A stretch of DNA of 64,000 bases from Medicago truncatula (Eukaryota > Streptophyta > Magnoliopsida > Fabales > Fabaceae): NCBI RefSeq assembly GCF_003473485.1, contig NC_053045.1, positions 33,516,494-33,580,493 on the forward strand, written 5' to 3'. Below are positions 5,121-59,237 of this stretch, in pieces. The notes beneath the pieces are model-generated. The model was not told the origin of the DNA and did no database searches. It saw only the letters and a list, made by a program, of their open reading frames with translations. A program made the position numbers and the translations under genes. Numbering within the stretch: the first letter of the stretch is position 1; the number at the start of each line of letters is the position of its first letter.

Positions 5121-8100
5121 ATGGATCTTTTTGATGATATTCTACTTGAAGTTCCTCCTGCACCTGGTTAGTAATGGGATGTAATTTTATTTTTTATTTT
5201 TTTTATACGTACAAGGTTGTTATGTACTTGGATTATAATTATAATATAATATAATTATATTCTTTTTGTAGCTCGGCCTAGTGCCAAGTTTGCGCCCAAG
5301 GTCAAATCAAAACAGTCCTTACGAAAGGAAATATCTGCATCAGAACATGCTACCTCGTCTGTAGATGGGAAGAACATGCATGTTGCTTCAACCCCCACGG
5401 TCACTAAATCCATTCGTGACACCAACCTCGATAATGGTAAGTTATGTTTGCACATCATTTGCGTATTTGAAGATTTTTTTTCTCAAGCTCAATCTTGCAC
5501 TAGTGTCACAATGCGTCAGACATTGAATCATTTCATATCTAGCATTGACAACTATTAAATGTGGTCTCTTATTAGATGGTGCAGAGAGTGAATTGAATAA
5601 AGTGCCTTCCCCATCCACTGCATTCCTTGACAGCAACAAAAGTTTGCAAGTTAATAACTCATTGCAAGACAGCCTAAATGTTGGCTTCAAAAGTTCTTCA
5701 GGCGACAATAGCACTGCAATTTCCGAGAACAACATTCATTCTATTTTTACTTCCGGAAAAGTACAAGAGGTAGAATAGTTTATCAAATTATATTAATATT
5801 TTTTATGCTCTGCAGAAGAGTTTACAAACTCCGTAGATAGTCCTACATTAGCTGATTTTTTACCGCACGACGTTACCAGAGGAAAAGAAGTAGACATTAA
5901 TTATTATGATTTGTCTTGCTTTTTCACTTCTCTTAATTTTGAATTTGATTGTAGATGATTTTTCATTTCATTTGTAATTTTTATTAGGATGCTAATGAGA
6001 GGAAACAATCTCTAAGGAAGCGTAAAAGATCATATGTTGCTGGTGTGGAGGATGACCGTGATAAAAGCTCAAGGCAGCTGAGAAAACAAGTAGCTTGTGA
6101 ACATGTTAAAAACTCAAACTCATTGATTGAGGATGATGATGAACTCGACCCTCCTTATATTTGTAACAATATAGATCAAATTGAAGAAAATGATGACGAG
6201 GACGAAGTGGATAATTCATCTAAGAAGAAAAGAGCATTAACAAATTCAAAAAAGAAATATATGTCTAAAAATGGAAAAGCTTACAAAAAAAGCAAGAAGG
6301 AAAATGGCGATTCAGAAAAAACTACTAAAGAACCACCCAAAAAGTTCTCTCGTTCTTCTCGGCGAAGAAAAAGACAAGGTAAACTAATCAATCTATTTGT
6401 TTAATTATCATTTTAATGACTATATTTTATGTGCTTATTGTGCAAGTTTTTTCATTCTCACAGTGGACCAGGCTCTGCTGGATGATTATGAACTTGGTTC
6501 TCGATCAATTTCTCTTAGGGATATTCTTGCAATTTCAGATGATAAGGAGCGACAGGAGGTAGGTATTCTCAACTATATTCCTTGTGTTACAATTCCCAGC
6601 TATTGTTATTAGTAGGCTTATGGCTTAAATTTCACTAACTGTACCATTTGTTTCCCTATACAGAAAAAGGAGGCAAAATCTTCCACCAATCAAAGGTAAG
6701 CAACACAGCTCGACAGTGTATTATCAAAGCAGTATTGGAGTATCTTTAGTGTAGCTAATAGTTAGTAGCCTAAGAAGTTAAGATATATGTGTATATTCGT
6801 TGTATGTGATTGAGTTAGGTAGAATCTTCTACCCTTTGTTAGCTTTCGCGATTTATTTCCTTGTCAATTATATTTTTTTAAAATGAAAATATATATCTGT
6901 GTTGAAAATCTGCGTATAGCACAGTAAACATCTTTGTTGCTTTATTTACTGCAATTCATTGCACATCTTACGTGGTTCCAAACATCTTCTTTACCATCAT
7001 CCAGTGATTGTTGTTACCGTCACTTTTTAGCCACGTGCTGTACTGTAAATAGATTTATATTTGTATTTTAAAATATTTATCTGCAGTGGTGGGGATTTCT
7101 TTCATGATGCCGGTGCTAATAATGAAGAGGAGACTTTTAGTTCAGATGATGATGGTCTTAGAGACCAAGAGGATGATCAAGCTAGTAAAAAGTTTGCGTC
7201 AACTGTCCCTTTATACAATTCCCATTCTTTCAGGGACAAGTCACCTAGGGTAAAATGGTCGAAACAAGATACCGAAAAGTTTTATGAGGTATTCTTCACA
7301 TAATTCTTACAATATGTCATTATTATTTCTTTAAACACAATTATATTACTAATTTTGTCTTTTCTGGATTTAGGAATGGAGACAGATTAGTCATTTTTAA
7401 TAAAATAACTATTCATTTTTTTAAAACATAGGCTCTGAAGGAGTTTGGCCTAGATTTTACAATGATTCAACAAATTTTTGCTAGTAAAACAAGACGTCAA
7501 ATTAAGCTGAAGTTCAAGAATGAAGACCAACATCATCCTTTACGAATAACTGATGCTATTAACAGTCATTCATCAGGTTAAACTCTTCAGTTACTTGTCT
7601 GTGCTCTTCATGGTCATATAGTACATGATCAGAAGGGTTTATTGTTCTTTATCTACTCCTTGATGTGGAATAACATTTTACTGAATGAAATCTATAATCT
7701 TCTCTCTTTAGATCATCATATTTTTAAGTCGGTGATTGCGAAACTGCCACAAATTTCTACCACTAATGCAAATCAGGAAGCCACTGAAGACACTACTGAA
7801 GACATGTCACCTGGAATTAATGTATGCACTCTTGGCTTGTTTTGTTTTATATTTTGAGGTCTGTATTCATTTGGTACGCATATGGTTTCTGCTAATTTTC
7901 TTTTAAATCTCATTTATTTATTAAAGACATAGTCTTATTGCATGATGTTTGTGAGTTAAAATTTGGAACATAATGATCTTTCAACCAAAATTAGCACTTT
8001 TACTTGGTTCAGTCCTTCGTTACTTAAATTTACTTCCATGTAATTTAAACTCTAATATAGAAGCAAGGTATATAGATTTGTGATTGAGATGTTATTCCCC

Positions 8101-11132: not shown

Positions 11133-14100
11133 CTGCCAAAATTTGAATGTTTTTTAATATTATAGTTAAGTGAGTACATAAAAAAAAAGATACATTGTGC
11201 ACATGAGAACAACAACATGAGAAGTCGAAAAGGATCACCTAAACTTGTTATGTCGCAAATATTTAAATAGTAATCAATAATGTCTTATCATCCTCTTCAA
11301 CACATCACAAACATGAAAAGTGCAAATTGTTTTCATGGTGTCACAGTGGGTTAAAACAAACTACAACTCTAAACATGAATGAAGGACAGCAACACTAGAA
11401 AAGCTACCTATGTAAACAACCAATTAAGAACAAAGTAATACAACAGCACACAAATACTGACCATACTACAATGAAAAATACACCAATTCAGTTGATAAGA
11501 ACCTAAATTGAATGACAGATTTTTAAATCTGAATCATTTGAGAAAGCAGGATCATTTAGGGAGCAGCATTTAGTAATAATAATATCAATTGTGTGATGAT
11601 AAGAATCAGTATCATTAACATATCTTTTCCCAAGCTAGTACATTTCAAATTCTTCAATAGTTGATAGCATATATATTTTAGCAAGTACTGTTCATATGCA
11701 AAGCGGACAATCCAAACCTTAATACATTAGCAGCACATTTCATCAACTTACAGCACAATATCCTTCATTATCCAAAATTTCATCTATAAAATAAAGTATT
11801 CATACTAGCACCAAATCATAAACGTTGGAATTGGAATAACTCAGCCGCATCAAATCTAATTAACATTTTTATGCCCAGAGAAAAAGAGGGAAATATGAAA
11901 TTTCTTCTAAATGAGAAGAGAAAAATGGAAAGTTGTTGTATACATCTCATAGGCTAAAGAAAAGCACCATACCCATTCTTCAGTTTCTGAAAGGTAATTG
12001 TTTCCATCAGTAACAAAATTAATCTCACTTGAGTTGAGTAGCCTGTCCTGTTCCATTTCAGAAGTGTTCTTTGGATTACTTAAATCCAGAGATCCATCAT
12101 TGTCACAGGATGAAACCAATGGATATTTATGACAACTTGCAACTTCCGAATTTTGTAATTCCGGAGAACAACTAGGCAGGACTGCAGCAGTTTTCGTCAT
12201 GCTTCTTAAAATTCTTGTAGAAGGTGTACTTGAACCTTGAATCTCAGAGTATCTATTTTCCCTCTTTTTGCGAAGTTCTGTTTTTGAAACCTGATCATCA
12301 GAATCTAGGCAAGACTTATTAAGAGGGTCAACGAATTGGGAGCATCTGAAAGCAAAGTATAAATATGATCAAAATAGCTGGCATAAAAACTAGAAAACAC
12401 TGCAAATTGTTACTAACAAGAGTAATTACCGCGAACGCGTCCTTCCCTCAACAATCTTGGCCGCCTCCTGCATAATATGGAAGGCTTTAATATTATAGTT
12501 AAGTGATTACATAAAAAAAATTATAAAAAAAGAAAAAAAGAAATAAAAATTATGCACATGCGAACAAGAGAGGTCAAAAAGGATCACCCAAACGTGATAG
12601 GAGGCAAATATTAAAATAGTGATCAATAATGTCTTATCATCTTCAATACATCACAAACATGAAAAGTGCAAATTGTTTTTAATGGGAGTGTTAACGTGGG
12701 TTAAAACAATCTACAGCTCCAAACAATGAGAAGGAAAAAATGAAAAGGTGTTGCATACATCTCAAAGGCTCAAAGGCTAGAGAAAAGCACCATACCCATT
12801 CTTCAGGTTGTGACGTGTAATTGTTCCTATCAGTAACAATATTAATCTCACTTGAGTTGAGTAGCCCATGCTGTTCCATTTCAGAAGTGTTCTTTGGTTC
12901 ACTTAAATCCAGGGATCCATCATTGTCACAGGGTGAAACCAATGCATGTTTATGACAACTTACAACTTCTGAATTTTGTAATTCCAGAGAACTACTAGGC
13001 AGGACCGCAGCAGCAGTTTTTGTCATGCTTCTTAAAATTCGTGTAGCAGGTGTACTTGAACCTTGAATCTCAGAGTATCTGTTTTCCCTCTTTATGTGAA
13101 GTTCCGATTTTGAAACCTGATCATCAGAATCTAGGCTAGACTTCTTAAGTGGGTCATCCAATTGGGAGCATCTGAAAGAAAAGTATAAATATGATCAAAG
13201 CAGTAGCATAAAAGCTAGGAAAACACTGGAAATTGTTGTAACCAACAAGAGTAATTACCCTGGACGCTTCCTTCCATCAACAACCTTGGCCGCCTCCTGC
13301 AAAAAATGGAATGTTTTAATATTATAGCTAAGTGATTACCTAAAAAATATAGATACATTATGCACATGCGAACAACATGAAAAGTCAAAAGGGATCACCC
13401 AAACTTGTTATGTGGCAAATATTTAAATAGTAATCAATAATGTCATATCATCTACTTCAACACATCACAAACATGAAACGTACAAATTGTTTTCATGGGA
13501 GTGTTACAGTGGGTTAAAACAATCTACAACGTCAAGCATGAAGGACAGCAAAATTTGAAAAGCTGCATATGTAAACAACCTATAAAGAACAACATAATAC
13601 AATACCACACAAATACTGACCATATTACAATGAAAAACATATCAATTCAGTTGATAAGAACCTAAATCAAATGACAAATTTTTAAATCCGTATTGATTGA
13701 GAAAGCAGGATGATCACTTAGGCAACAACATTTAGTAATAATATGAATTGTGTAATGATGAGAAACATTGCCATTAACATTTTTTCCCAATGCTAGTAGA
13801 TTTCACATTCTTGAATAGTTAAAAGCATATATATTTTAGCATGTACTGTTCATACGCAAATCTGTATAATGCCAAGCTTAACGCATTAGCAACACATATG
13901 ACAGATAAATTTCTTCAACTTACAGCAAAATATCCTTCATCATCAAAAACTTAATCTATAAAATATGATATCTATACTAGCCACAAATTGTAAAGTTGGA
14001 ATTGGAATAACTCAGCCACATCAAATCTGAAGACCATTTTGATGCCCAGAGAAAAAGAGGGGAATATGAAATTTCTTCTAAATGAGAAAAAAAAAAGTAG

Positions 14101-17064
14101 AAAGGCGTTGCATACATCTCAAAGGCTAGAAAAAAGCACCATACCCGTTCTTCAGGTTGTGATGAGTAATTATTCCCATCAATAACGAAATTAATCTCAC
14201 TTGAGTTGAGTAGCCCATCATGTTCCATTTCAGAAGTTTTCTTTCGTTCACTGAAATCCAGGGATCCATCATTGTCACAGGGTGAAACCAATGCATGTTT
14301 TTGACAATTTGCAACATCCGAATTTTGTAATTCCGGAGAGCTACTAGGCAGGACCGTAACAACAGTTTTCGACCTGCTTCTTAAAATTCTTGTGGCAGGC
14401 GTACTTGAACCTTGAATCTTGGAGTATCTGTTTTTTCTCTTTTTGCGATGCTCTGTTTTTGAAACCTGATCATCAGAATCTAGGCTAGACTTCGTAAGTG
14501 GGTCATCAAACTGAGAGCATCTGAAAACAAAGTAAAAATATGATCAAAATAGATGCATAAAAGTTAGAAAACACTGCAAATTGTTACTAACAGGAGTAAT
14601 TACCGTGAACGCATTCTTCCATCAACAATCTTGGCCACCTCCTGCAAAAAATGGAATGATTTAATATTATAGCTAAGTGATTACCTAAAAAATATAGATA
14701 CATTATGCACATGCGAACAACATGAAAAGTCAAAAGGGATCACCCAAACTTGTTATGTGGCAAATATTTAAATAGTAATCAATAATGTCATATCATCTAC
14801 TTCAACACATCACAAACATGAAACGTACGAATTGTTTTCATCGGAAAGTTACAGTGGGTTAAAACAATCTACAACTTCAAACATGAAGGATGGCAAAATT
14901 TGAAAAGCTACCTATGTAAGCAACCAGTAAAGAACAACATAATAAAAAAACACACAAATACTGACCATACTACAATGAATAATATATCAATTCAGTTTAT
15001 AAGAACCTAAGTCAAATGATATATTTTTGAATCCGAATTAGTTGAGAAAGCAGGATAATTTAGGCAACAGCATTTAGTAATAATATCAATGGTGGGACCC
15101 CTTCCCGGACCCTGCGTATGCATGAGCTTTAGTGCACCGGGTTGCCCTTTATCAATTGTGTAATGATGAGAAGCATTATCATTAACATTTCTTTTCCTGT
15201 GCTAGTAAATTTCAAATTCTTCACTAGTTTATAGCATATATATTTTAGCAAGTACTGTTCATATGCAAATCTGTATAATGCAAAGCTGAATGCATTAGCA
15301 ACACATATGACAGATAAATTTCTTCAATTTACAGAAAAATATCCTTCATTATCGAAAATTCCATCTATAAAATACAATACTTATACTAGCACCAAATTGT
15401 AAAGTTGGAATTCGAATGACTCAGCCACATTAAATATAATGAACATTTTTATTGTATGAGAAAAAGAGGGAAATATGAAAAATTTTCTAAATGAGAAGGA
15501 AAAAAAATGAAGAAGTGTTGCATACATATCAGAGGCTAGAGAAAAGTACAATACCCATTCTTCAGTTTGTGACGGGTAATCGTTCTTATCAGTAACTTTA
15601 TTAATCTCACTTGACTTGAGCAGCCCGTACTGTTCCATTTCGCAAGTGTTCTTTGGAGCCTTTAAATCCAGGGTTTCATTATTGTCACAGGGTGAAACTG
15701 ATGCATATTTATGACAACATGCGGCTTCCGAATTTTGTAATTCCACAGAACTACTGGGCAGGATCATAACAGCAGTTTTCTTCATGCTTCTTAAAATTCT
15801 TGTGGCAAGTGTACTTGAACCTTGAATATCGGAGTATCTGTTTCTCTTCTTTTTGCGAAGTTCTGTTTTGGAAACGTGAACATCAGAATCTAGGCTAGAC
15901 TTCTTAAGTCGGTCATCTAATCGGGAGCATCTGAAAGCAAAGTATAAATATGATCAGAGCAGCTGCCTGAAAGCTAGAAAACACTGCAATTTGTTACTAA
16001 CAAAGGTAATTACCGCGAATGCATCTTTCCATTAACAATTTTGGCCGCCTCCTGCGAAAAAATTCAATACTTTTTATTATAGTCAAGTGATTACATTATG
16101 CACATGAGAACATTAACATAAGAAGTTGAAAAGGATCATCCAAACTTGTAAGGTGGAAAATATTTAATTAATAATATGTCTTATTATCTTCAACCCATCA
16201 CAAACATGAAAAGTACAAATTGTTTTCACGAGAGTGTACTGTGGGTTAAAACAATCTACAGCTCTAAAGATAAAGAACCATAAAATCTGAAGAGCTACCG
16301 ATGTAAACAACCGATTAAGAACAACAACAACATATTACAAAAACACACAGATAGTGATCAAACTACAATGAAAAATATCCCAATTCAGTTGATAAAAACC
16401 TAAATCAAATGAAAGATTTTTAAATCTGAATTATTTCAGAAAGCAGACTCATTTAGGCAACAGAATTTAGTAATAATACCACAGAGCTACTTAATGAAGC
16501 TCCCGCACACACCAGACCAGGGTTCACAATGCAAGAACCATTTGGAAGACCACAATTCCCAGAACATTGATTATCAGGCTTTGAATGTTGAAGCTCCAGC
16601 TTGCCGCGATCAGAAATGGTGCATGGGATTACCGAATACGACATTAGAGGTCTTTCACCATTTTTTTGTTGAAATAACTCTGTAACACCTTTGGTCAATT
16701 TCAACCCTGAGGACGAAGATTTGGCCTGTCCATCACGGTCGAAAATTTGACAATAATCTGTATTCCACAGGAAGGGAGGTTTCTCTCGTAATTCCAAGAG
16801 ATCTTGCCGAAAACTTCGAGATTTGTTTACATTCACGTTGTCACTTACGCGGACCTCATTTTTAAACTTATTAGTCCAATCTGATGGGGACGAAGTTAAA
16901 TCAACTTGAAGATTAACTCCCTCATCTGACCAGACATAGAACTCAAAAGACGAGCGAGGGAACTCGGTAACGGCTTTTATTGACTGAACAATATCATTCT
17001 CCGCCAAAGGCGCACTTGCTTCTACAGCTCTGCCATTATTTTGGCGCGCTTTTTTATTTCTCAT
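10803..17064 (-). CDS. Unrecognised protein of 816 residues made of five tandem modules
   Basis: I do not recognise the family. Eleven exons join in frame, each with GT/AG ends: 17064-16513, then pairs 16051-16014 + 15930-15555, 14641-14604 + 14520-14145, 13296-13259 + 13171-12796, 12467-12430 + 12345-11973, and 11132-11095 + 11010-10803. Exon 1 encodes a unique 184-residue N-terminus (start MRNKKARQNNGRAV, basic; later FEFYVWSDEGVNLQVDLTSS). Each pair encodes a module of about 138 residues: a 13-residue lead of type EAAKIVDGRxRSR, then a basic, Ser-rich block of type DDPLKKSSLDSDDQVSK, then TRILRSMTKTA, and an acidic tail ending in EEW. Module 2 ends EER instead. Module 5 is short and ends RRSPRLISKVL before TGA. 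The protein is basic and low in hydrophobic stretches, perhaps nuclear; this is inference only. The first ATG in the leader is the one at 17064. A 5'UTR exon ends at a donor at 18245. Confidence 0.72.
11133..12467 (-). repeat. Tandem intragenic duplication, unit 4 of 5 (about 1.34 kb)
   Basis: The long exon is 373 instead of 376 bases (one codon shorter in the run after MTKTA), so the frame is kept. Introns are collinear with units 1 and 2. Confidence 0.85.
12468..13296 (-). repeat. Tandem intragenic duplication, unit 3 of 5 (about 0.83 kb, internally deleted)
   Basis: The long intron after the 376-base exon has lost roughly half a kilobase. The deletion joins near 12720-12730, where the text jumps from the 'ttaaaacaatctacagctcc' part to the 'aaacaatgagaag' part. 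Exons are intact. Confidence 0.8.
13297..14641 (-). repeat. Tandem intragenic duplication, unit 2 of 5 (about 1.35 kb)
   Basis: Same order as unit 1. The intron part near 14690-14830 is nearly identical to 13340-13500 of unit 3, which suggests recent exchange or a later duplication step. Confidence 0.85.
14642..16051 (-). repeat. Tandem intragenic duplication, unit 1 of 5 (about 1.41 kb)
   Basis: Runs from the start of one 38-base exon to the next, with a 376-base exon and two introns. The introns are as recognisably duplicated as the exons, for example around 'aagtactgttcatatgcaaatctgtataatg'. The event was therefore genomic, not retroposition. It carries a 59-bp SINE insertion absent from the other units. 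Confidence 0.85.
15091..15149 (+). mobile_element. 5'-truncated SINE (Au-like 3' end), 59 bp
   Basis: GC-rich insert beginning ggtgggaccccttcccgg and ending ccgggttgccctt, like the 3' end of Au-type plant SINEs. It is flanked by the 7-bp duplication tatcaat (15084-15090 and 15150-15156). The matching introns of other units read straight through this point (near 11578 and 13737). Confidence 0.75.
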
Positions 17065-22444: not shown

Positions 22445-25400
22445 TCAATGATTATGTTCTTCTTCTTCTTTAGGTTCCATCTCCTTCACACTGTCTACTA
22501 TACGCTGCATTTTCCTTGAGAGACCCACATTATGCTCCTCGATATAATCAAATATCACTTCAAGTTGTCTTTTATATGTCACAGATCGCTTTTTCTCTAT
22601 TGCCAACTGCTGAGATAGTTCGCGGATTTTATCATGTTCGTTCTGAGACTGACATAGAAACAAACGAGGTAAGTAGGGGGAAAAAAATAAACTGAAAAGA
22701 GAACAGAATAGAATAATTATAAATCACACAAGTTCGTCACATGCAGAAAGTGCCGTAAAAGTAATTTCTAAGTTGCAATTTCTCTCGTGGAAAGGATAAG
22801 GTGGCCAATATAACTACATAACAAGAATGATCTATTTTCCTATAATACCTTTAACTACTTATTATCTCATTCTACCTATCTATCTCTCTGCGATAAATAC
22901 TTGAGAGTATTATCGACAAAACAATAGTTAATTCTGCATTGAACTTGGAAAACGACAAATAAATAAGATTTGTTTCTTACAAAAACGAAAATTAAAAATG
23001 AATGGATGAAGTATTATATAAGGTGAAAAAAGACAGAAGCTTCATTCACAATTTTGCTAAAATGTGTGAAAGAACCAATATTATCCTAAAAACTTCATTC
23101 TGAAATGGTCTTAAATTATCTAATCCTTAAACTAATACCATTCATTCTCAATCTATCAAGCATAAAGTAACAATGACAATCAACGGAATAAACCATTACA
23201 ATATATACGAGAATCAATGAACTATTATAATTTATACAATTCTTCGGTAGTGAAAAAGCATAGAAACTGACCGGATAAATTTCAAACATATCCCTTCTAC
23301 TACTTCCAGGATTCAAGGGATGCGTGTGCTCCTTTACAAACTTCGTAATAACCCATTTACCAGAATTAATTTTCCTCATCATAATCATTGCCCTGCAACC
23401 AACCCTTGTTTCTGCCCTTTGCCTCACAATCTTTTCACGCTTGTCAGGCATTCTGTAACCCTCTTTGTTGCAAACAAGAGCCCGTCCAATAGCAGTTCCG
23501 TCTTTCCTTGATCGTGAGAGCTTGCTTACGCGTATGATGAATCCAACCTCGGCTGCGTATGCATTGTAAAATGCATGCGCTGCTGCTTCCGACTCGAACT
23601 CCTGACCCACATAGGGCTCCTCAGCAGATGCGCCCGGTAGTGTGGGAACTGCAGCAGGTATTATTAACCCTCCTCCAGATGAATCTTGAGCCACGTTATC
23701 ATCTTGGTCTTGTTTGTAAGTTGGTTCAGCAGAACTTTCTTCTTCTATGTATTCATCAGGTATGCTACCAGCTTCAACCATGGCACCATCCCTTACTGTA
23801 TCGCCGTTAACAGAGTCATCAATCTCAAACTCCACTGCAACAACAAAACATCTGCTATAAGATTTTCAGTGTTCATGTGATATATTCTACAGAACAGTCT
23901 ACAAAATTGATCGATAACCTAAGAAGCCAGATACATAGAACGATACAAATATGGGAATTTTTTATAAATCAAGATGTGCCGCCCATGACCAAGATACGTT
24001 AACAAACATATATGCAGGGGCGGATCTGGGATTGTCTCTTTGGTGTGGCTAAATTTTATTCACATCAAAAGTTTTAAATCACTATATTGGACTCAATCAT
24101 GAAACACATTGTAAAAGTTTAGGATTTGCTTCATCAAACTTTTTATTTAACCCTTTTCAATTCAAATATAGTCAATTAAAGGAAATAAGAAAGTAATTCA
24201 TAGGTAAGAAATATTTTATCAAATGATTTTATAAAGAAAGTTGTTAATTTTTTTTGTTGGTGAAAAAAAGTTATTAATTTAATATAATTAGAGAATTTTT
24301 TAAATCAATTTAGCATTATTTACTTAATTAATACTGGGCCTTTATGAATAAAAGAGCTCAAACTAATAAATTGGGCCTAAAGTAGCCCAATCCTGCTCAA
24401 TATTACAGAACCCTAACATTTCATTCAGCTGCTCCCTGCCTCTTACGGCAACAACACTGCTCATCTTCTTTCCACTTTCAGAAAATCCACAAACAGTGGG
24501 ATTAGGATGTTTGCACAAAATCAGCAGCAACATTGCTCTTCTTCTCCTTGTTTACTCTTTTGTAGAGATACACTCAAAAATTTGGAAATTCTAAAATATC
24601 AACTATAAGGTATAACATGAAGAAAAAAAAATGGAGGAAAATCTGGTGCGGCAATAGCCACACAGTGCCTTACACAGATCCGCCCCTGCATATATGATGT
24701 AACGAAACACAATTAAAATGGCAAAAAATTATACTTAAAAAGTCACTATCAATGATATGTTGTATCTGAATGGTAAAAAGTTATACTAAAAAGTCACTAC
24801 AAATGACATGTCGTACCTGAATAGTAAAAAATAATATTAAAAAGTCACTATAAATGACATGTCATATCTGAATGACAATTATATCTTAAGTAGGTAAGAC
24901 GTATTGAAGATGCATATTGCATCGGAGAAAATATTTTTAAAAAAGAATAAAACAAATTATTAGATGCTTTTCGGGAATGTATCGAGAAGTATCGGGCACG
25001 TGTCAGATATCGATACTTTCCAATTTGGAGTATCAAAGCTTTATATTCCATAACTCGCGTATTGAAATCTATGTAGTCGTGGTGGGATAGCGGGTAGCGG
25101 TATGGCCGCTACGTCACAAGTTTAGGGAAACAATACAAGAAACTCATCATACACATAAAAGCTAAAAATATAGAAGAACACAGCATTTAAGACATATTCA
25201 TAACGAATAATCAAAGTTAATTGCTATCAATATTCAAACCCAATATAAATCAAATAAGTTTTAGAGCCTTCAAGATTTAAAACAACTCATCTAAGCATTT
25301 AAAATAAACAAGGGTGAAATGACCAAAAAGTTCAGAATTTTATAGGACATTGACTGTATCGGCCACTACAACCGCAACTGGTCACTATCAGTGGGACTAC

Positions 25401-47102: not shown

Positions 47103-48601
47103 GACAAAATGTTTGTTTAGTTTTGTTTTGATTTTGCTTTGGTACTCTTAACTAAGCGGTTAAACCATAGAGGAAAACAGGGTGTTGAGGTTTGGTTGTT
47201 TTGTTGCACCAAAGATTAACATTCTTAAAGTTTGGTGTGAATAAATTCTTATTTAATTGTATTGTACATGCTGGTTGGTTGCATATAGTGTGTTTGAATG
47301 TGATTTCTCCTCTCATTTTTGTGTAGGGAATATGATTTCTCCTTTAATGGGGAACGTGAAGTTTAATAAAGTAGTTAGATTTATAGCATAGCTCAACTAA
47401 AGAATAAAGAAGTCAAACAATGGGAGCATGCTAATCAACAATTTTGTTTTTATTCAGTAACTTTCAAAGTTTTTAAGAATGTACTGTGTATACCCTCTTT
47501 CAAAGAAAAAAAAAACTGTACAGAACATATCGAATGGTTTTTGGGAAAATATTAACCGTTATATTACAGCTAGGTCGTTATGATGCCTTATTCCACAATA
47601 TAAGTCATTTTAAGAGGAAAAAAAAAAAAAGGAGTTTCTACTGTCCACTTGCGGTATACCTGTTTCATAAATCAATAAATTAACAATCATTTTTAGATAA
47701 TAAAGAACTATTTTTTTCTTCAAGAAAGGTAATAAAGAACCATTTGTCTTGTACCAAAAAATAAAAAAAAGAACCATTTGTCGATTTTTGTATTTAAAAA
47801 AATATTATTTAATAAGAAAAAACAACACTTCATTGTTTATAAGAATCATACCAATTCATCTTCAACCACAAACTCAATTCAAAACTAACACCCTTTTTTT
47901 CACCATCAACCTTCGTTTTTCTGAATATTCCTTCATTCTTCTTTCATCGATTCAAAAACTTCACCGTTATTCAAATCTTAATTTTTTAGTTTTCAATTTC
48001 ATCATCAATATCAGGAAGAGGCAAAACCCTAGGTCTTGGTGCTGCCAAGAAGGCAACATCAAGAAACAGCAAAACTAAAATTAAAGTTGAAAAGTTAAAA
48101 TTAAGATATCAGTTAATGACTGATAACTGATAGCTTATGGTTGAAAAGTTAGTTTATTAAAATTAAAGTGTTTAGTAAAATTAATTGTTGAAGTGGCTGA
48201 CAAATATAAAAAGACCTAAACGGACATGTTTGTTTATTTTATTTTTTTTACAAATTATATAAAAAAAATTTGGTTAATGTATTTTTTAAAATATTTAAAA
48301 TTATTTTCGTCTCCAAAATGACAAATATGTTTTATGAATTAAATTTACTTTTTCATTTTAATTTAACAACTTATGTTTTATGAATTTTATTTAACTATAC
48401 TTGCTTCCCTGTTGTAAATTTTAAGTAAAATTATATATTACATATGAACTAAGAGCAAGGTTAAAAATTAACAAGAAAATATAAAAATCAATATCATGAG
48501 ATGACAACCTAATTGTATATGAGACTAAATGTAGCCGGTTACTTATGAAAAATTATAAATTATGCGTTCAAATGCTACTTAAAATAGCATCTCAAAAAAT
48601 A
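47103..48601. other. AT-rich intergenic sequence
   Basis: No gene supported. 47830-48080 has a leader-like pyrimidine-rich stretch, but it leads into no coding exon I could follow. Confidence 0.4.
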
Positions 48602-50117
48602 GAGTTAATTATGTTTTAGGTCCTATAAATAGGTGCATTTTCAACAACAGTCCTTACTTAAATTTTATTAAATTTATTATCCCCAACGTTTTTTTTCGTT
48701 AGTAAAATAGGTCATCGTTGTTAATTGTTACTGATTGAGCAAACGGTGAAGCACACGTGGATGCCACATCTGACCTTTTTTTTGTTGGGTTAAATATGTT
48801 TTTAGTCCCTATAAAATTGAGGCATTTTAAGTTTAGTCCTTACTTAATTTTAACAGTTGTTTCAGTCCTTACAAAAGTACTATGCACTTAGTATTAGTCT
48901 CTTCTCAATTCAAATTTGTTTAATTTATGTTTAAACTCTTAAGTTTTTTAACATTTTTTTGTAGACGTGTTAAGAACATTACTAAAAGATCATCCGCAAA
49001 AAATTATCGCAAAATTTGATTTATATGTCCAGATTTTTTACTTTTATCTTTAACATTTATCGTTTTCAAAAATTCATATTTAATTCGTTTTATGTTAAAA
49101 AATTCTAAATTTTAGTAATTGAACCTTTGATAGTGTTCTAAACTTGTCTCAAAAAAATCGTTTAAAAATTTAAGAGTTTAAGGATAATTAAACAAACTTT
49201 GTTTTAGCAGGGACTAAAAATAAAAGTAAATTTTTTTAGGGACTAAAAAACCTACTAAAACTAGTTATGATAGTATTTTCATCATGAAAAGATATTTTTG
49301 ACTAGTAATTATTCCAAAAAAAACTATCAATTCGGCAACAAAACCACTCATGCCCGACAATGCAAGATAAGTCATCGATAAGATAGTGAAAATCGTGAAT
49401 ATTTTTGATATTGGGATAGCCATTCCGCCCATTTCGTCAGGATAAAGAAGACGTAATTTATCATAACTAGTTCCTGCCAAGAAAAAAAGATAGCGCCAAT
49501 AAATCCATGATATATTATTTGTAAAACGGCCCCGTTGAGCCCAATATCACTTATAGAACCAATTCAAATAATTATGAAACTCATATGAGATACCGAAGAA
49601 TAAGCTATTCTTTTTTTAAAATTACGTTGACCAAAAGATGTTGAATCAGCATAAATTATTTAAATAGAACTTAATATCATTAACGAGGGGAAAAATATTG
49701 AATGAGAGTGGGAAAATAATTCCATATTAATTCGAACCAATCCATATGCTCCCATTTCATGCAAACTAGTGGCAATATACAAGAGTTTAAGCATAAATTG
49801 AACAAATTTGAATTGAGTAGGGACTAGTACTGAGTGCATAGTATTTTTTTAAGGACTAAAACAACTATTAAAATTAAGTAAGGACTAAACTTAAAATGCC
49901 TCAATTTTACAGGGACTAAAAACATATTTAACTGAAAAAAAGAAGTCAGATGTGGCATCCATGTATGCTTCACTGTTTGCTCAATCATCAACAATTAACA
50001 GCGAGGACCTATTTTGCTAACGGAAAAAAACGTTGGGACCAAAAATTTAATAAAATTTAAGTAGGGACTAATGTTGGAAACGCGCCTATTTATAGGATCC
50101 TAAAACATAATTAGCCC
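48602..50117. mobile_element. Mutator-like element with long terminal inverted repeats carrying a plastid ndhD fragment
   Basis: Left arm 48602-48940 and right arm 49791-50117 are reverse complements at roughly 85% by eye, from (ga/gggc)taattatgttttagg inward to 'ttaaactctt'. The flanks caaaaaata (48593-48601) and caaaaaaata (50118-50127) fit a 9-bp duplication with one slipped A. Between the arms lie a non-coding part (48941-49262) and the ndhD fragment. A second, shortened copy of the inner right arm is seen at about 49168-49230. No transposase is present. Superfamily assignment rests on the long arms and duplication length. Confidence 0.7.
49263..49790 (-). pseudogene. ndhD: Plastid ndhD fragment in nuclear DNA (NUPT)
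   Basis: On the minus strand it reads [13 protein letters not shown], then [20 protein letters not shown], then LNGAVLQII and HGFIGA, then [19 protein letters not shown], and finally [20 protein letters not shown]. This is the middle of the plastid NADH dehydrogenase-like subunit 4 (ndhD). The frame is broken by stops and shifts, so it is dead. It abuts the right arm of the surrounding element directly. Confidence 0.88.
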
Positions 50118-50127
50118 CAAAAAAATA

Positions 50128-51920: not shown

Positions 51921-52736
51921 ATGGGTAAGCCTTTGATTTATGAGATCTTGGAAAAACCAGCAACAAGTGTTATTATAGCAATTTGCAGTGCAATTTGGTT
52001 TTATATACAGAAGAAAAATATTGGTTATTCACATGTTGGTTTGAGTTATGAGACTGCAATGGAAGGACAATATTGGAGAATAATCACTTCTGCATTTTCT
52101 CATATAAGTATAATTCATCTTGTTTTTAACATGAGTGCACTTTGGAGTCTTGGGGCTGTAGAGCAATTGGATCATGTTGGCCTCGGTGTCGAGTATTATT
52201 TGCAGTATACACTTGTGTTGGTGGTTGTATCGGGGGTTTTGGTTTTGGCAATGTATCACTTGTTGATTCAGAGATTCAAGGTTGAGTATTTTCGTCGAGT
52301 TACGGCTGTTGGTTATTCGTGTGTTGTTTTCGGGTGGATGACGATTCTTTCTGTGAAGCAACCTTCTTCAAAGTTGGAGCTCTTTGGATTTCTTTCGCTT
52401 CCTATTAGTTTTGCTCCGTTTGAATCACTTATTTTCACTTCGATTATTGTTCCTCAGGCGAGTTTTATTGGCCATTTATCTGGGATTGTTGTTGGATATG
52501 CTATAGCTTGGGGTTTGATTCATGGGATGACTAATTACTGGGCACTTACCTTATTGGGTTGGATTGTTCTTGTCTTTGTTTTGAGTTTGAAGAAATCTAG
52601 TGCACTTGACATAAGCTTCATTGAGATTGAATCTGTTACCGATCCTTCATTACCGTCTGTGCGATTTTTGGGATCTGGCAATGGTAGAACCCTGCAGATG
52701 AGTGCATTGCCAGATGGAAATGTTGACATTGTCTAA
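51921..52736 (+). CDS. RBL13: Rhomboid-like intramembrane protease, RBL13 type
   Basis: Intronless, 271 residues, with about six hydrophobic segments. The catalytic dyad is visible: Ser133 in GYSCVVFG (the GxSxxxFG box) and His185 in [18 protein letters not shown] (residues 66-78) matches the conserved segment of loop 1 and helix 2. The start [16 protein letters not shown] and the long soluble tail ([17 protein letters not shown]) agree with Arabidopsis RBL13 as remembered. Rhomboids cut membrane proteins within or near the bilayer. The plant RBL13 substrate is unknown, and its site (Golgi or other endomembrane) is inference. Confidence 0.9.
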
Positions 52737-55354: not shown

Positions 55355-58300
55355 ATGGATGATGAGTCAAATTTTTCAAAAGTTGCCCCTCCTCTCTTTG
55401 ATGGGAACAACTATGAACTTTGGGCAGTAAAAATGGAGGCTTACCTAGAAGCTTTGGATGTTTGGGAAGCCATAGAAGAAGATTATGAAGTTCCTCCACT
55501 GCCGAATAATCCAACTATGACTCAGTTGAAATATCACAAGGAGAGAAAAACTAAGAAGGCGAAAGCAAAATCATGTCTCTTTGCTGGTGTTTCAGAAACA
55601 GTTTTCACTAGAATCATGACCCTCAAAACACCAAAAGCAATATGGGACTATTTGAAGGAAGAATTTGCAGGTGATGAGAGAATTTGAAGCATGCAAGTGC
55701 TGAATCTGATGAGAGAGTTTGAGTTGCAGAAAATGAAAGAGTCTGAGACAATCAAAGAATACTCAGACAAATTGTTGTCTATTGCAAACAAGGTTAGATT
55801 ACTTGGCACTGGATTTGCTGATTCCAGAATTGTAGAAATTTTTTTGGTTACAGTGCCTGAAAGATATGAGGCATCTCTAGCCTGTTTAGAGAACACAAAT
55901 GATCTTAGTAAGATCACTTTGGCAGAAGTCGTACATGCCTTGCAAGCCCAAGAACAACGAAGGCTTATGAGGCAAGATCGTATGGTTGAAGGTGCTTTAC
56001 CAGCCAAGAGCCAACACTCTTTGAAGAGTCATCCAGCAAGTAGTGAATACAACAAAGGAAATGATAAGAAGAAAAGTTTCCCACCTTGTGAACACTGCGG
56101 AAAAATGGGTCACCCACCATTTAAATGTTGGAGAAGGCCAGATGCAAAGTGCAGCAAGTGCAATGAAATGGGTCATGAAGATGTGATTTGTAAAGCAAAA
56201 ATCCAACAAGTTGCAGTTGAAGCAGAAAATGTACAACAAGAGGAGGAAGACTATCTCTTTGTTGCAACATGTTTTTCCAGCAGCAATTCATGTGAATCTT
56301 GGCTGATTGATAGTGGATACACTAATCACATGACCACGATAAAGCTTTATTCAAGAATCTGGAGGACACCGAAATCAAATGGGTCAGAATTGGAAATGGT
56401 GTACATATTCCAGTTAAAGGCAAGGGAACAGTCGCTATAACAAGCTACTCAAGTACGAAAAATCTCACTGATGTTCTATATGTGCCTGAAATTAATCAAA
56501 ACTTGCTTAGTGTTGGACAACTACTTGAAAAAGGGTTCAAAGTTATTTTTGAAGATAAGAATTGTATAGTTAAGGATCCAACATGCCAAGAAATGTGCAA
56601 AGTAAAAATGAAGAGCAAGAGTTTTTCATTTGATCCAATGAAGGAGGAGCAATCTGCTCTTCCAGTCACAATTAGCACAACTGATCTTTGGCACAAACGG
56701 CTAGGACATTTCCATCATTTGGGAATGGAATACATGTTGAAAAATCAATTAGTTCGTGGAGTTCCATCTTTAACAGAAAAGTTAGTTGAATGTGAAGCTT
56801 GCCAATTCGGGAAGCAAACGGAAGCCATTTCCTACAAGTACCTGGAAGGCGAGCCAGAAGCTCCAACTTATTCACACTGATCTTTGTGGACCACAAAGAA
56901 CTCCATCACTAAATGGAAGTCTTTATTATATTGCTTTTATTGACGACTTAACCAGAATGTGCTGGATTTATTTTCTTAAATACAAATCAGAAGTAGCTGC
57001 AGTGTTTTGGAAATTCAAAGCTCATGTTGAAAATCAAAGCAATTGCCGTATTCAAATTCTGAGGTCAGATAATGGAAAAGAGTATTTGTCAAATCAGTTT
57101 CAACAATTTTGTGATGAAGCAGGGATCGAACATCAGTTGACTGCTCCTTACACTCCTCAACAAAATGCAATGAGTGAAAGGAAAAATAGATCAATCATGG
57201 AGATGGCTAGGTGTATGCTTCATCAAAAGGAATTGCCAAATAAATTATGGGCTGAAGCCGCAAGTACTGCTGTTTTCTTACAAAATAGACTCCCTACACG
57301 AGCTTTGCAAAATCAAACTCCATTTGAGGCCTGGTTTGGTTTTAAACCTTCTCTGGATTTTTTTAAAGTGTTTGGTTGCTTATGTTACTCACATGTACCT
57401 CAGGTTAAGCGTGACAAGCTTGACAAAAGGGCTGAATCTGGAATATTTATTGGCTACAGCACAGTCTCTAAAGCTTATAAAATTTTTCAACCTCAAAGTG
57501 GAAAATTTTTGGTAAGTAGAGATGTGCACTTCATGGAAGATGAAAAGTGGTGCTGGAGTGGTCCAAATAAGAATCATAATGTTGTATTGGACCTTGAAGA
57601 AACAGTAGATGATCCACCAATTCAAGGCACAAGATTAGTCTCTGACATCTATCAAAGAAGCAATGTAGCAGTGTGTAACATAGCTGTATTTGAACCAGCT
57701 AGTTTTGAAGAAGCTGTTATGGAGGCAAAATGGTTAGTTGCGATGAAAGATGAGCTCTCCATGATCGAGAAAAACCAAACATGGGAGTTGGTTCCAAGAC
57801 CTCATGATAGAAAGGTCATCGGAGTGAAATGGGTTTTAAGAACAAAATTCAACCCCGATGGTTCTATAAACAAGCACAAAGCAAGGCTTGTTGTGAAGGG
57901 TTATTCTCAGATATTTGGAATTGATTATTCTGATACTTTTGCTCCTGTAGCAAGACATGACACAATCAGGCTACTACTTGACGTTGTTGCACAAAAAGGG
58001 TGGCAAGTGTTTCATATGGACGTTAAGTCGGCTTTCCTTAACGGTTTTTTGCAAGAGGAGATATATGTTGAGCAACCATATGGTTCTGTGATCAAAGGTC
58101 AAGAAGAAAAAGTCTACTTGCTAAAAAAAGGCTCTCTACGGCTTAAAGCAAACACCAAGAGTGTGGTACAATAGAATTAATGATCATTTGCTGCATTTGG
58201 GCTTCCAAAAGAGCCTCTCTGAAGCTACACTTTATGTCAAGCATGTTGGTGCTGATATTTTAATCATTTCTTTGTATGTTGATGATCTTTTAGTGACAGG

Positions 58301-59237
58301 AAGCAACCTAGCACTAGTTGAAGAATTCAAGCAAGAAATGAAAGATGTCTTTGAGATGACTGATCTTGGTCTTATGACTTATTTTTTGGGCATGGAAATC
58401 ACTCAAAAGAAGAATGAGATTTTTATTTGTCAGAAAAAATATGCAAAGGAGATTTTGAAAAAATTTCAGCTTGATGAATGCAGAACAATGAACACTCCTA
58501 TGCATCAAAAGGAGAAGTTCATCAAGGATGATGGGGCTGATAAAGTTGATGAAGCTCATTTTAGAAGCTTGATTGGGTGTCTAATGTATCTTACTTCTAC
58601 AAGGCCTGACATCTTATTCTCAGTTAGCTTGTTGTCAAGATTCATGCATTGTCCTAGTGAATTGCACTTAAAGGCAGCAAAAAGAGTTGTAAGGTAAATC
58701 AAAGGAACTGTCCATTATGGAGTAAAGTACTGCAAGGTCAAAGAATTCAAATTATTTGGCTACTCTGACAGTGATTGGGCAGGTAGCTTGGATGATATGA
58801 AGAGTACTTTAGGGTATTGTTTCAACGTAGGTTCAAGTGTTTTCTCTCGGTGTTCAAAGAAACAAGAGGTTGTAGCCCAGTCAACAGCAGAAGCTGAGTT
58901 TGTAGCTGCAACAGCAGCTGTAAATCAAGCTATTTGGTTGAGGAATATCTTAGCAAATTTGGGCCTGAAGCAAGAGCAAAGTACACCGATTTTTGTTGAT
59001 AATCAAGCAGCTATTTCCATATCATATAATCCAGTATTTCATGGGAAGACCAAGCACTTTAATGTCAAGCTATTTTACTTAAGAGAAGTGCAAGAAAATG
59101 GTGATGTGAATTTGGTTTATTGTAAAACAGAAGATCAAGCTGCTGATATGTTTACCAAGTCTTTTCCACTCAGCAGGTTTGAATTTTTAAAGAAGAAGCT
59201 AGGAGTTTGCAACCTCCACGGCAAGGAGGAGTATTGA
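55355..59237 (+). pseudogene. Copia gag-pol, broken by two stops and three frameshifts
   Basis: Gag starts at 55355 (MDDESNFSKVAPPLFDGNNY) and carries two CCHC-type knuckles near 56090-56190. The protease motif is LIDSG near 56300. The pre-integrase and HHCC part is at 56690-56820, with integrase D/D/E residues at 56940-57150. RT starts near 57780, with the YVDD box near 58275. RNase H is at 58760-59200. Lesions: TGA at 55685-55687; a one-base loss near 56336; a frameshift near 56846; a one-base gain near 58128 in the conserved RT segment before the YVDD part; TAA at 58695-58697. It encodes no working polyprotein and could move only in trans. Confidence 0.93.

Follow-up and report, generated by a model that had tools for sequence, protein, structure and literature searches.

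A plastid ndhD fragment inside a nonautonomous Mutator-like element of Medicago truncatula: probable single capture and spread in the nuclear genome

A nonautonomous Mutator-like element (MULE) in the nuclear genome of Medicago truncatula carries a piece of about 489 bp of the plastid gene ndhD. This piece was very probably captured a single time and then multiplied with the element, so that plastid DNA now stands at several dozen sites or more. The evidence counted in support of a single capture and subsequent spread comprised the plastid source of the cargo, the junctions and substitutions that are common to the copies, the tree of the copies, and the 9-bp target-site duplications.

RESULTS

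Layout of the element

The window studied here (the whole stretch of DNA that was analyzed, 64,000 nucleotides) is C4:33516494-33580493 of the searched assembly, which holds 429,922,655 bases in 42 contigs. The element occupies window positions 48602-50117 (1,516 bp), with 487 bp of ndhD cargo inside, and is composed of the following parts.

48593-48601, no strand: left target-site duplication CAAAAAATA, 7 of 9 bases in register with the right one
48602-48940, plus strand: left terminal arm; outer part at 48602-48786, second inner terminus GGGTTAAATATG starting at 48787
48787-49263, plus strand: interrupted inner foldback element, consisting of left arm, loop, and a right-arm remnant at about 49172-49263; 85% identity with a cargo-free relative across 483 columns
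49264-49270, no strand: 7-bp spacer between arm remnant and plastid DNA
49271-49757, minus strand: plastid ndhD fragment, source C42:5280-5767, decayed in this copy by stops and frameshifts
49758-49780, no strand: filler not matched in the plastome; its length in c-type copies is about 47 bp
49781-50117, minus strand: right terminal arm, an inverted copy of the left arm by inverted-pair and consensus comparison
50118-50126, no strand: right target-site duplication CAAAAAAAT, 7 of 9 bases in register with the left one

Inverted pairs of 164, 123, and 81 nt (91, 84, and 80% complementarity, respectively) were found between 48614-48940 and 49781-50104, in agreement with the earlier note, which had described arms of about 330 bp on a 1.5-kb element; the arms of this copy come to about 335 to 337 bp. 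At both element ends an outer terminus, GGGTTAATTATG, is followed by the inner terminus, GGGTTAAATATG, and at the left end the two are about 71% alike over 52 nt. No open reading frame of at least 120 amino acids was found inside 48602-50117. Elsewhere in the window, an open reading frame with a Rhomboid domain (PF01694) lies at 51921-52736, its start about 1.8 kb past the element, and one with a FAR1 DNA-binding domain (PF03101) lies at 23116-23835; FAR1-type genes are relatives of MULE transposases. Judged by eye, positions 55691-59237 hold broken frames like the gag, integrase, and reverse transcriptase of a copia-type retrotransposon, and two minus-strand frames (12691-13161 and 15381-15785) have clearly similar translations, perhaps through a local duplication.

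Identity and source of the plastid cargo

Contig C42 (117.5 kb; 117,500 bases), with an open ndhD on its minus strand, was taken to be the plastid contig. When positions 49263-49790, to which ndhD had been assigned before, were compared with it, only query bases 9 to 495 matched, at C42:5280-5767 (94%). A decayed ndhD fragment of about 0.5 kb is thus present as claimed, with its limits corrected to 49271-49757; it falls just short of the right arm, which it had been said to abut, with 23 bp of other sequence (49758-49780) intervening. Homology to ndhD extending past the arms, which had been named as evidence against capture, was not seen: the sole significant match of the element consensus on C42 was 5280-5767, and all others were of 33 bp or less with E values of 0.003 or worse. 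For the filler, the best plastome match was only 11 bp. A cargo consensus of 20 copies was the same as the plastid gene in 479 of 489 columns, with 9 substitutions and 1 gap. In a search of the PDB with the translated consensus piece, the top three matches were chloroplast NdhD chains (E values of 1.6e-76 to 2.8e-72), followed by 6hum_D (2.9e-51), which we take to be a cyanobacterial chain, and by mitochondrial Nad4 at about 1e-26 and weaker. A detour of the cargo through the mitochondrion is unlikely, as no match to C41, a contig of mitochondrial size (271,618 bp), was among the best 40 of 89 candidates in the ndhD search.

The same ndhD stretch was also observed in three ordinary nuclear plastid insertions (L056 to L058, at C4:12641896-12642383, C4:536020-536504, and C7:7366807-7367293). 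On either side they stay colinear with the plastid past the ndhD end points throughout the 150 bp that were retrieved, if not farther. With 0, 0, and 4 substitutions relative to the plastid, respectively, and one site in common with the element family, they were rejected as donors of the cargo. Compared with NUPTs, the carriers likewise hold plastid-derived nuclear DNA but are not free-standing insertions, being bounded by a transposon and having constant end points wherever these are preserved.

Copies, shared junctions, and phylogeny

Searches of the plant's own genome recovered at least 62 carriers of the ndhD cargo, 54 of them read as sequence and 8 as search rows alone; this total leaves out one ndhD-only row at C5:39876920. 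In the whole-element search, which took the best 40 of 1,684 first-look candidates (L001 to L040), every locus contained ndhD and L023 contained it twice, giving 41 copies. The search with the ndhD part (best 40 of 89 candidates scored) returned 41 rows, namely, 1 plastid row, 3 ordinary nuclear insertions, and 37 element rows; the last fall in 36 loci, of which 3 were new (L059 to L061), all with ndhD. Each of the cargo-based searches scored the best 40 of 87 to 89 first-look candidates. A composite query added 12 loci, with ndhD in six of seven (L062 to L068) and in four of five short reads (L069 to L073), and a query with c-type cargo gave 20 rows spanning all or much of the cargo, 8 of them at new places. 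As read, the outer-arm family therefore comprises 54 copies with cargo, L066 without it, and L071, in which no ndhD was found within the 666 bases read. L066 has outer arms in a short deletion form and may be a deletion derivative, not a certain cargo-free ancestor; L073, of about 525 bp, holds 38 bp only of ndhD.

The left junction, CTACTAAAACTAGTTATGA/TAGTATTTTCATC, was found in 40/40 loci of the first set, with a few bases gone in L004 and a later insert there in L036; the right junction, CCCATTT/CATGCAAAACTAGTGGCAGTATACAAGA, was found in 35/40, the region being gone in L030, L031, L032, L034, and L035. The insert in L036 (C1:40229149-40232337) is about 650 bp long and lies exactly at the arm/ndhD junction, with consensus positions 664-671 duplicated. 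Three plastid-to-element changes are common to the readable copies, at positions 5355 (48 of 49, the remaining copy having a third base), 5366 (48 of 48), and 5381 (49 of 49), and three more (5505, 5537, and 5554) occur in both the main and b consensus, in a stretch that is absent from the c lineage. A 50-copy tree rooted on the plastid sequence placed 36 copies in a main clade and 14 in a b+c clade, each with UFBoot support of 90. The c subclade, with support of 96 in a 40-copy tree, was not cleanly separated in the 50-copy tree (support of 49, with L035 inside). Together, the shared junctions, the substitutions, and the two-clade tree indicate one capture followed by amplification. Moreover, the further copies with the same arm/ndhD junctions that the earlier note had proposed to seek genome-wide were found in numbers. 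The spread of plastid sequence by a moving element, which it had only anticipated, is borne out by the 62 or more carriers, and the outcome it had named as contrary, namely, insertion after the last move with no other carriers, did not occur.

Movement with the plastid DNA inside

Because many carriers have the same arm/ndhD junctions, the element moved with the plastid DNA inside it. Target-site duplications were compared at the outer termini in the 28 of 40 loci that had one clear end pair; the other 12 lacked one or the other recognizable end and were left out. The flanking 9-mers agreed at 8 to 9 of 9 bases in 17/28 loci and at 7 or more in 21/28 (mean, 7.18), compared with 0.8% and 5.4% of 756 mismatched pairs (mean, 3.77). 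In seven of these 28 loci the agreement was at 5 or fewer of the 9 bases, and they hence lend no support. In a set of 20 loci, agreement averaged 7.15 of 9, versus 4.05 for mismatched flanks. A looser terminus pattern, applicable to 39/40 loci, gave a mean of 4.3 versus 3.1 and was discarded because it had picked inner termini. The near-perfect 9-bp duplication once attributed to the copy in the window was a generous reading (7/9) for that copy, but it is an apt description of the family.

Decay and age of the cargo

Relative to their own cargo consensus, 40 copies showed 731 changes, including 233 C>T and 169 G>A. Per site in 50 copies, C>T changes amounted to 52/475 at CHG, 108/1,355 at CG, and 314/5,639 at CHH, compared with 403/21,704 for all other changes, a pattern that fits methylated nuclear DNA. 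Among 34 full-length cargoes, 27 contained a stop and every one had a stop, a frameshift, or both. By codon position (1, 2, and 3), there were 300, 352, and 225 changes (130, 139, and 119 distinct ones), so that positions 1 and 2 were not changed less often. A coding role was rejected on these two grounds (0/34 intact and no deficit at codon positions 1 and 2), and the cargo is, judged by its sequence, without one. In the 50-copy tree, the stem from the plastid to the common ancestor measured 0.0116 substitutions per site and the mean distance from ancestor to tip 0.0436. Nuclear DNA changes at about 1e-8 substitutions per site and year, and at that rate these depths would correspond to ages on the scale of 1 and 4 million years. 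Enrichment of C:G>T:A changes probably makes both ages overestimates.

Architecture and origin of the right end

Next to carrier L003 (~785-1265; near C1:37628100-37628700) is a foldback element that lacks the cargo and measures about 540 bp. It contains no plastid DNA, has a perfect 9-bp duplication, TACAAAGAA, as read from sequence, is identical to consensus positions 184-663 at 410/483 columns, and has halves that agree at 70%. This relative, the one example seen (n = 1), is a putative model for the ancestral inner element. Compared with it, the inner element of the carriers is broken at a point corresponding to about 58 bp before the relative's right end, after which come the 7-bp spacer, ndhD, the filler, and the terminal right arm. 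In the main consensus the terminal right arm and the reversed left arm were alike at 329/335 positions, the six differences all being transitions, with 2 gap columns; the old right-arm remnant matched the left arm at 78/91 positions, plus 8 gap columns. The arms of c-type copies (about 380 bp, with a filler of about 47 bp) were alike at 367/377. A shortened copy of the inner right arm had been described before. It is present, at about 49172-49263, but it seems to represent the initial right arm of an older foldback element, cut by the insertion, with the outer right arm as the newer of the two.

These comparisons suggest the following sequence of events. Capture would have started where the foldback element had broken or a fork had stalled, about 58 bp from its right end, and the gap would have been patched with plastid DNA, either directly or via a nuclear plastid insertion, plus short filler. 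Synthesis could then have jumped to the left arm, whose outward copying would have produced a new right end like the left one, and the transposase would presumably have been supplied by another element. Later deletions may have produced the b and c sublineages. In the direction that we infer, the main form would derive from a deletion at a short AAGA repeat of the c-type arm/filler junction, and b-type copies from a deletion running from ndhD to the arm. For one step alone, the rebuilding of the right end from the left arm after plastid patching, we lean on balance toward this account.

Alternative explanations

The same capture and spread could have taken place with no rebuilding of the right end, if alike long arms existed beforehand and the plastid DNA and filler were simply inserted at the boundary of the inner remnant and the right arm. 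MULE arms are often alike, an earlier element may already have had the outer 183 bp on each side, and the composite query, which might have settled the matter, gave no certain cargo-free ancestor with outer arms among its 12 new loci, 10 of which had ndhD. However, the inner right-arm sequence occurs twice, once diverged and cut and once near-identical to the left arm, and the arm-arm difference (6/335) is close to that between cargo consensus and plastid (9/488), as would be expected if both started together. Preexisting arms are a plausible but rather doubtful account, and rebuilding from the left arm is the reading retained here.

Explanations that do away with the single capture and spread fared much worse. 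Copying by segmental duplication, or repeated independent capture, is very improbable: some carriers are close together, as in L023 with its two cargoes, but the copy ends coincide with the termini, the 9-bp duplications vary from copy to copy, and the copies have their junctions and three substitutions in common. We give equally little credence to derivation of the cargo from an ndhD transcript instead of DNA. On the coding strand, C>T accounts for three of the nine consensus changes, but G>A, which C-to-U editing does not make, accounts for another three; moreover, the changes are not confined to known editing sites and, in keeping with methylated DNA, are raised in CG and CHG contexts. Ordinary nuclear plastid insertions of ndhD do exist in the assembly, three in number, and the plastid DNA might likewise have entered one dead transposon after its last move, yet dozens of copies with common junctions, substitutions, and target duplications already refute this, and its probability is close to nil.

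DISCUSSION

Significance

With a single capture followed by spread as the preferred reading, organelle DNA was spread in the nucleus by a DNA transposon, not by a linked retrotransposon, and one capture gave rise to several dozen plastid-derived segments. Unless transposons are masked, such a family can inflate counts of independent plastid-to-nucleus transfers and create apparent plastome hot spots. Since the source of the cargo is exactly known and slow to change, the cargo can date both the capture and the burst, which is seldom possible with nuclear-gene cargo. With the old cut arm kept next to the new one, models in which Pack-MULEs are born by template switching can be put to the test. 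More tentatively, and with somewhat less than even confidence, we suggest that this transposon family owes its birth in part to plastid DNA, the same ndhD repair having copied the left end rightward and made a symmetric mobile element from a broken foldback. If so, organelle DNA escaping into breaks would be one route to new nonautonomous transposons.

Comparison with known systems

The capture of nuclear gene pieces by MULEs (Pack-MULEs) is well known. By structure and behavior, the element described here is classed as a nonautonomous Mutator-type element and a Pack-MULE. Its target-site duplications lie within the 9 to 11 bp of MULEs (8 to 9 of 9 bases in 17/28 loci versus 0.8%), its terminal inverted repeats (337 bp in main-form elements and about 380 bp in c-type copies) are within the usual range of about 100 to 500 bp, it has no transposase of its own (no open reading frame of at least 120 amino acids), and its 487 bp of ndhD constitute a host-gene fragment, though a plastid and not a nuclear one. 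Two features are unusual for a Pack-MULE, namely, the plastid cargo and the fact that, among the copies read, almost the entire outer-arm family consists of the carrier form.

Among the open-licence papers listed in the literature searches, none dealt with a MULE or MITE that carries plastid DNA, as judged by titles and the beginnings of abstracts. A study of 30 angiosperms, including M. truncatula, describes plastid insertions near transposons, and neither "captur" nor "ndhD" occurs in its main text (PMC12572781). In papaya, a plastid rps15 sequence occurs 23 times in the nucleus and its spread was ascribed to neighboring retrotransposons; there, too, a single plastid segment was multiplied, whereas the ndhD DNA sits inside the mobile unit of a DNA transposon (PMC7037861). 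The multicopy Pack-TIRs of animals, for which filler and template switching have been proposed, would resemble the ndhD element in having filler DNA and template switching at birth, followed by transposition of the chimera; unlike those elements, with their nuclear fillers, the ndhD element is from a plant, has a plastid filler, and would have had its arm copied from the opposite end (PMC8277862). Tomato PM-ZIBP is a tandem-TIR Pack-MULE with a gene fragment (PMC3310237). Like Pack-MULEs in general and PM-ZIBP in particular, the ndhD element is nonautonomous, with long inverted arms, 9-bp duplications, and a gene fragment that was amplified along with it. Its outer and inner termini at each end may be a related tandem pair of the PM-ZIBP kind, but at the left end they are only about 71% alike over 52 nt; unlike PM-ZIBP, it carries plastid cargo and keeps an older, cut arm beside what appears to be a rebuilt one (PMC3310237).
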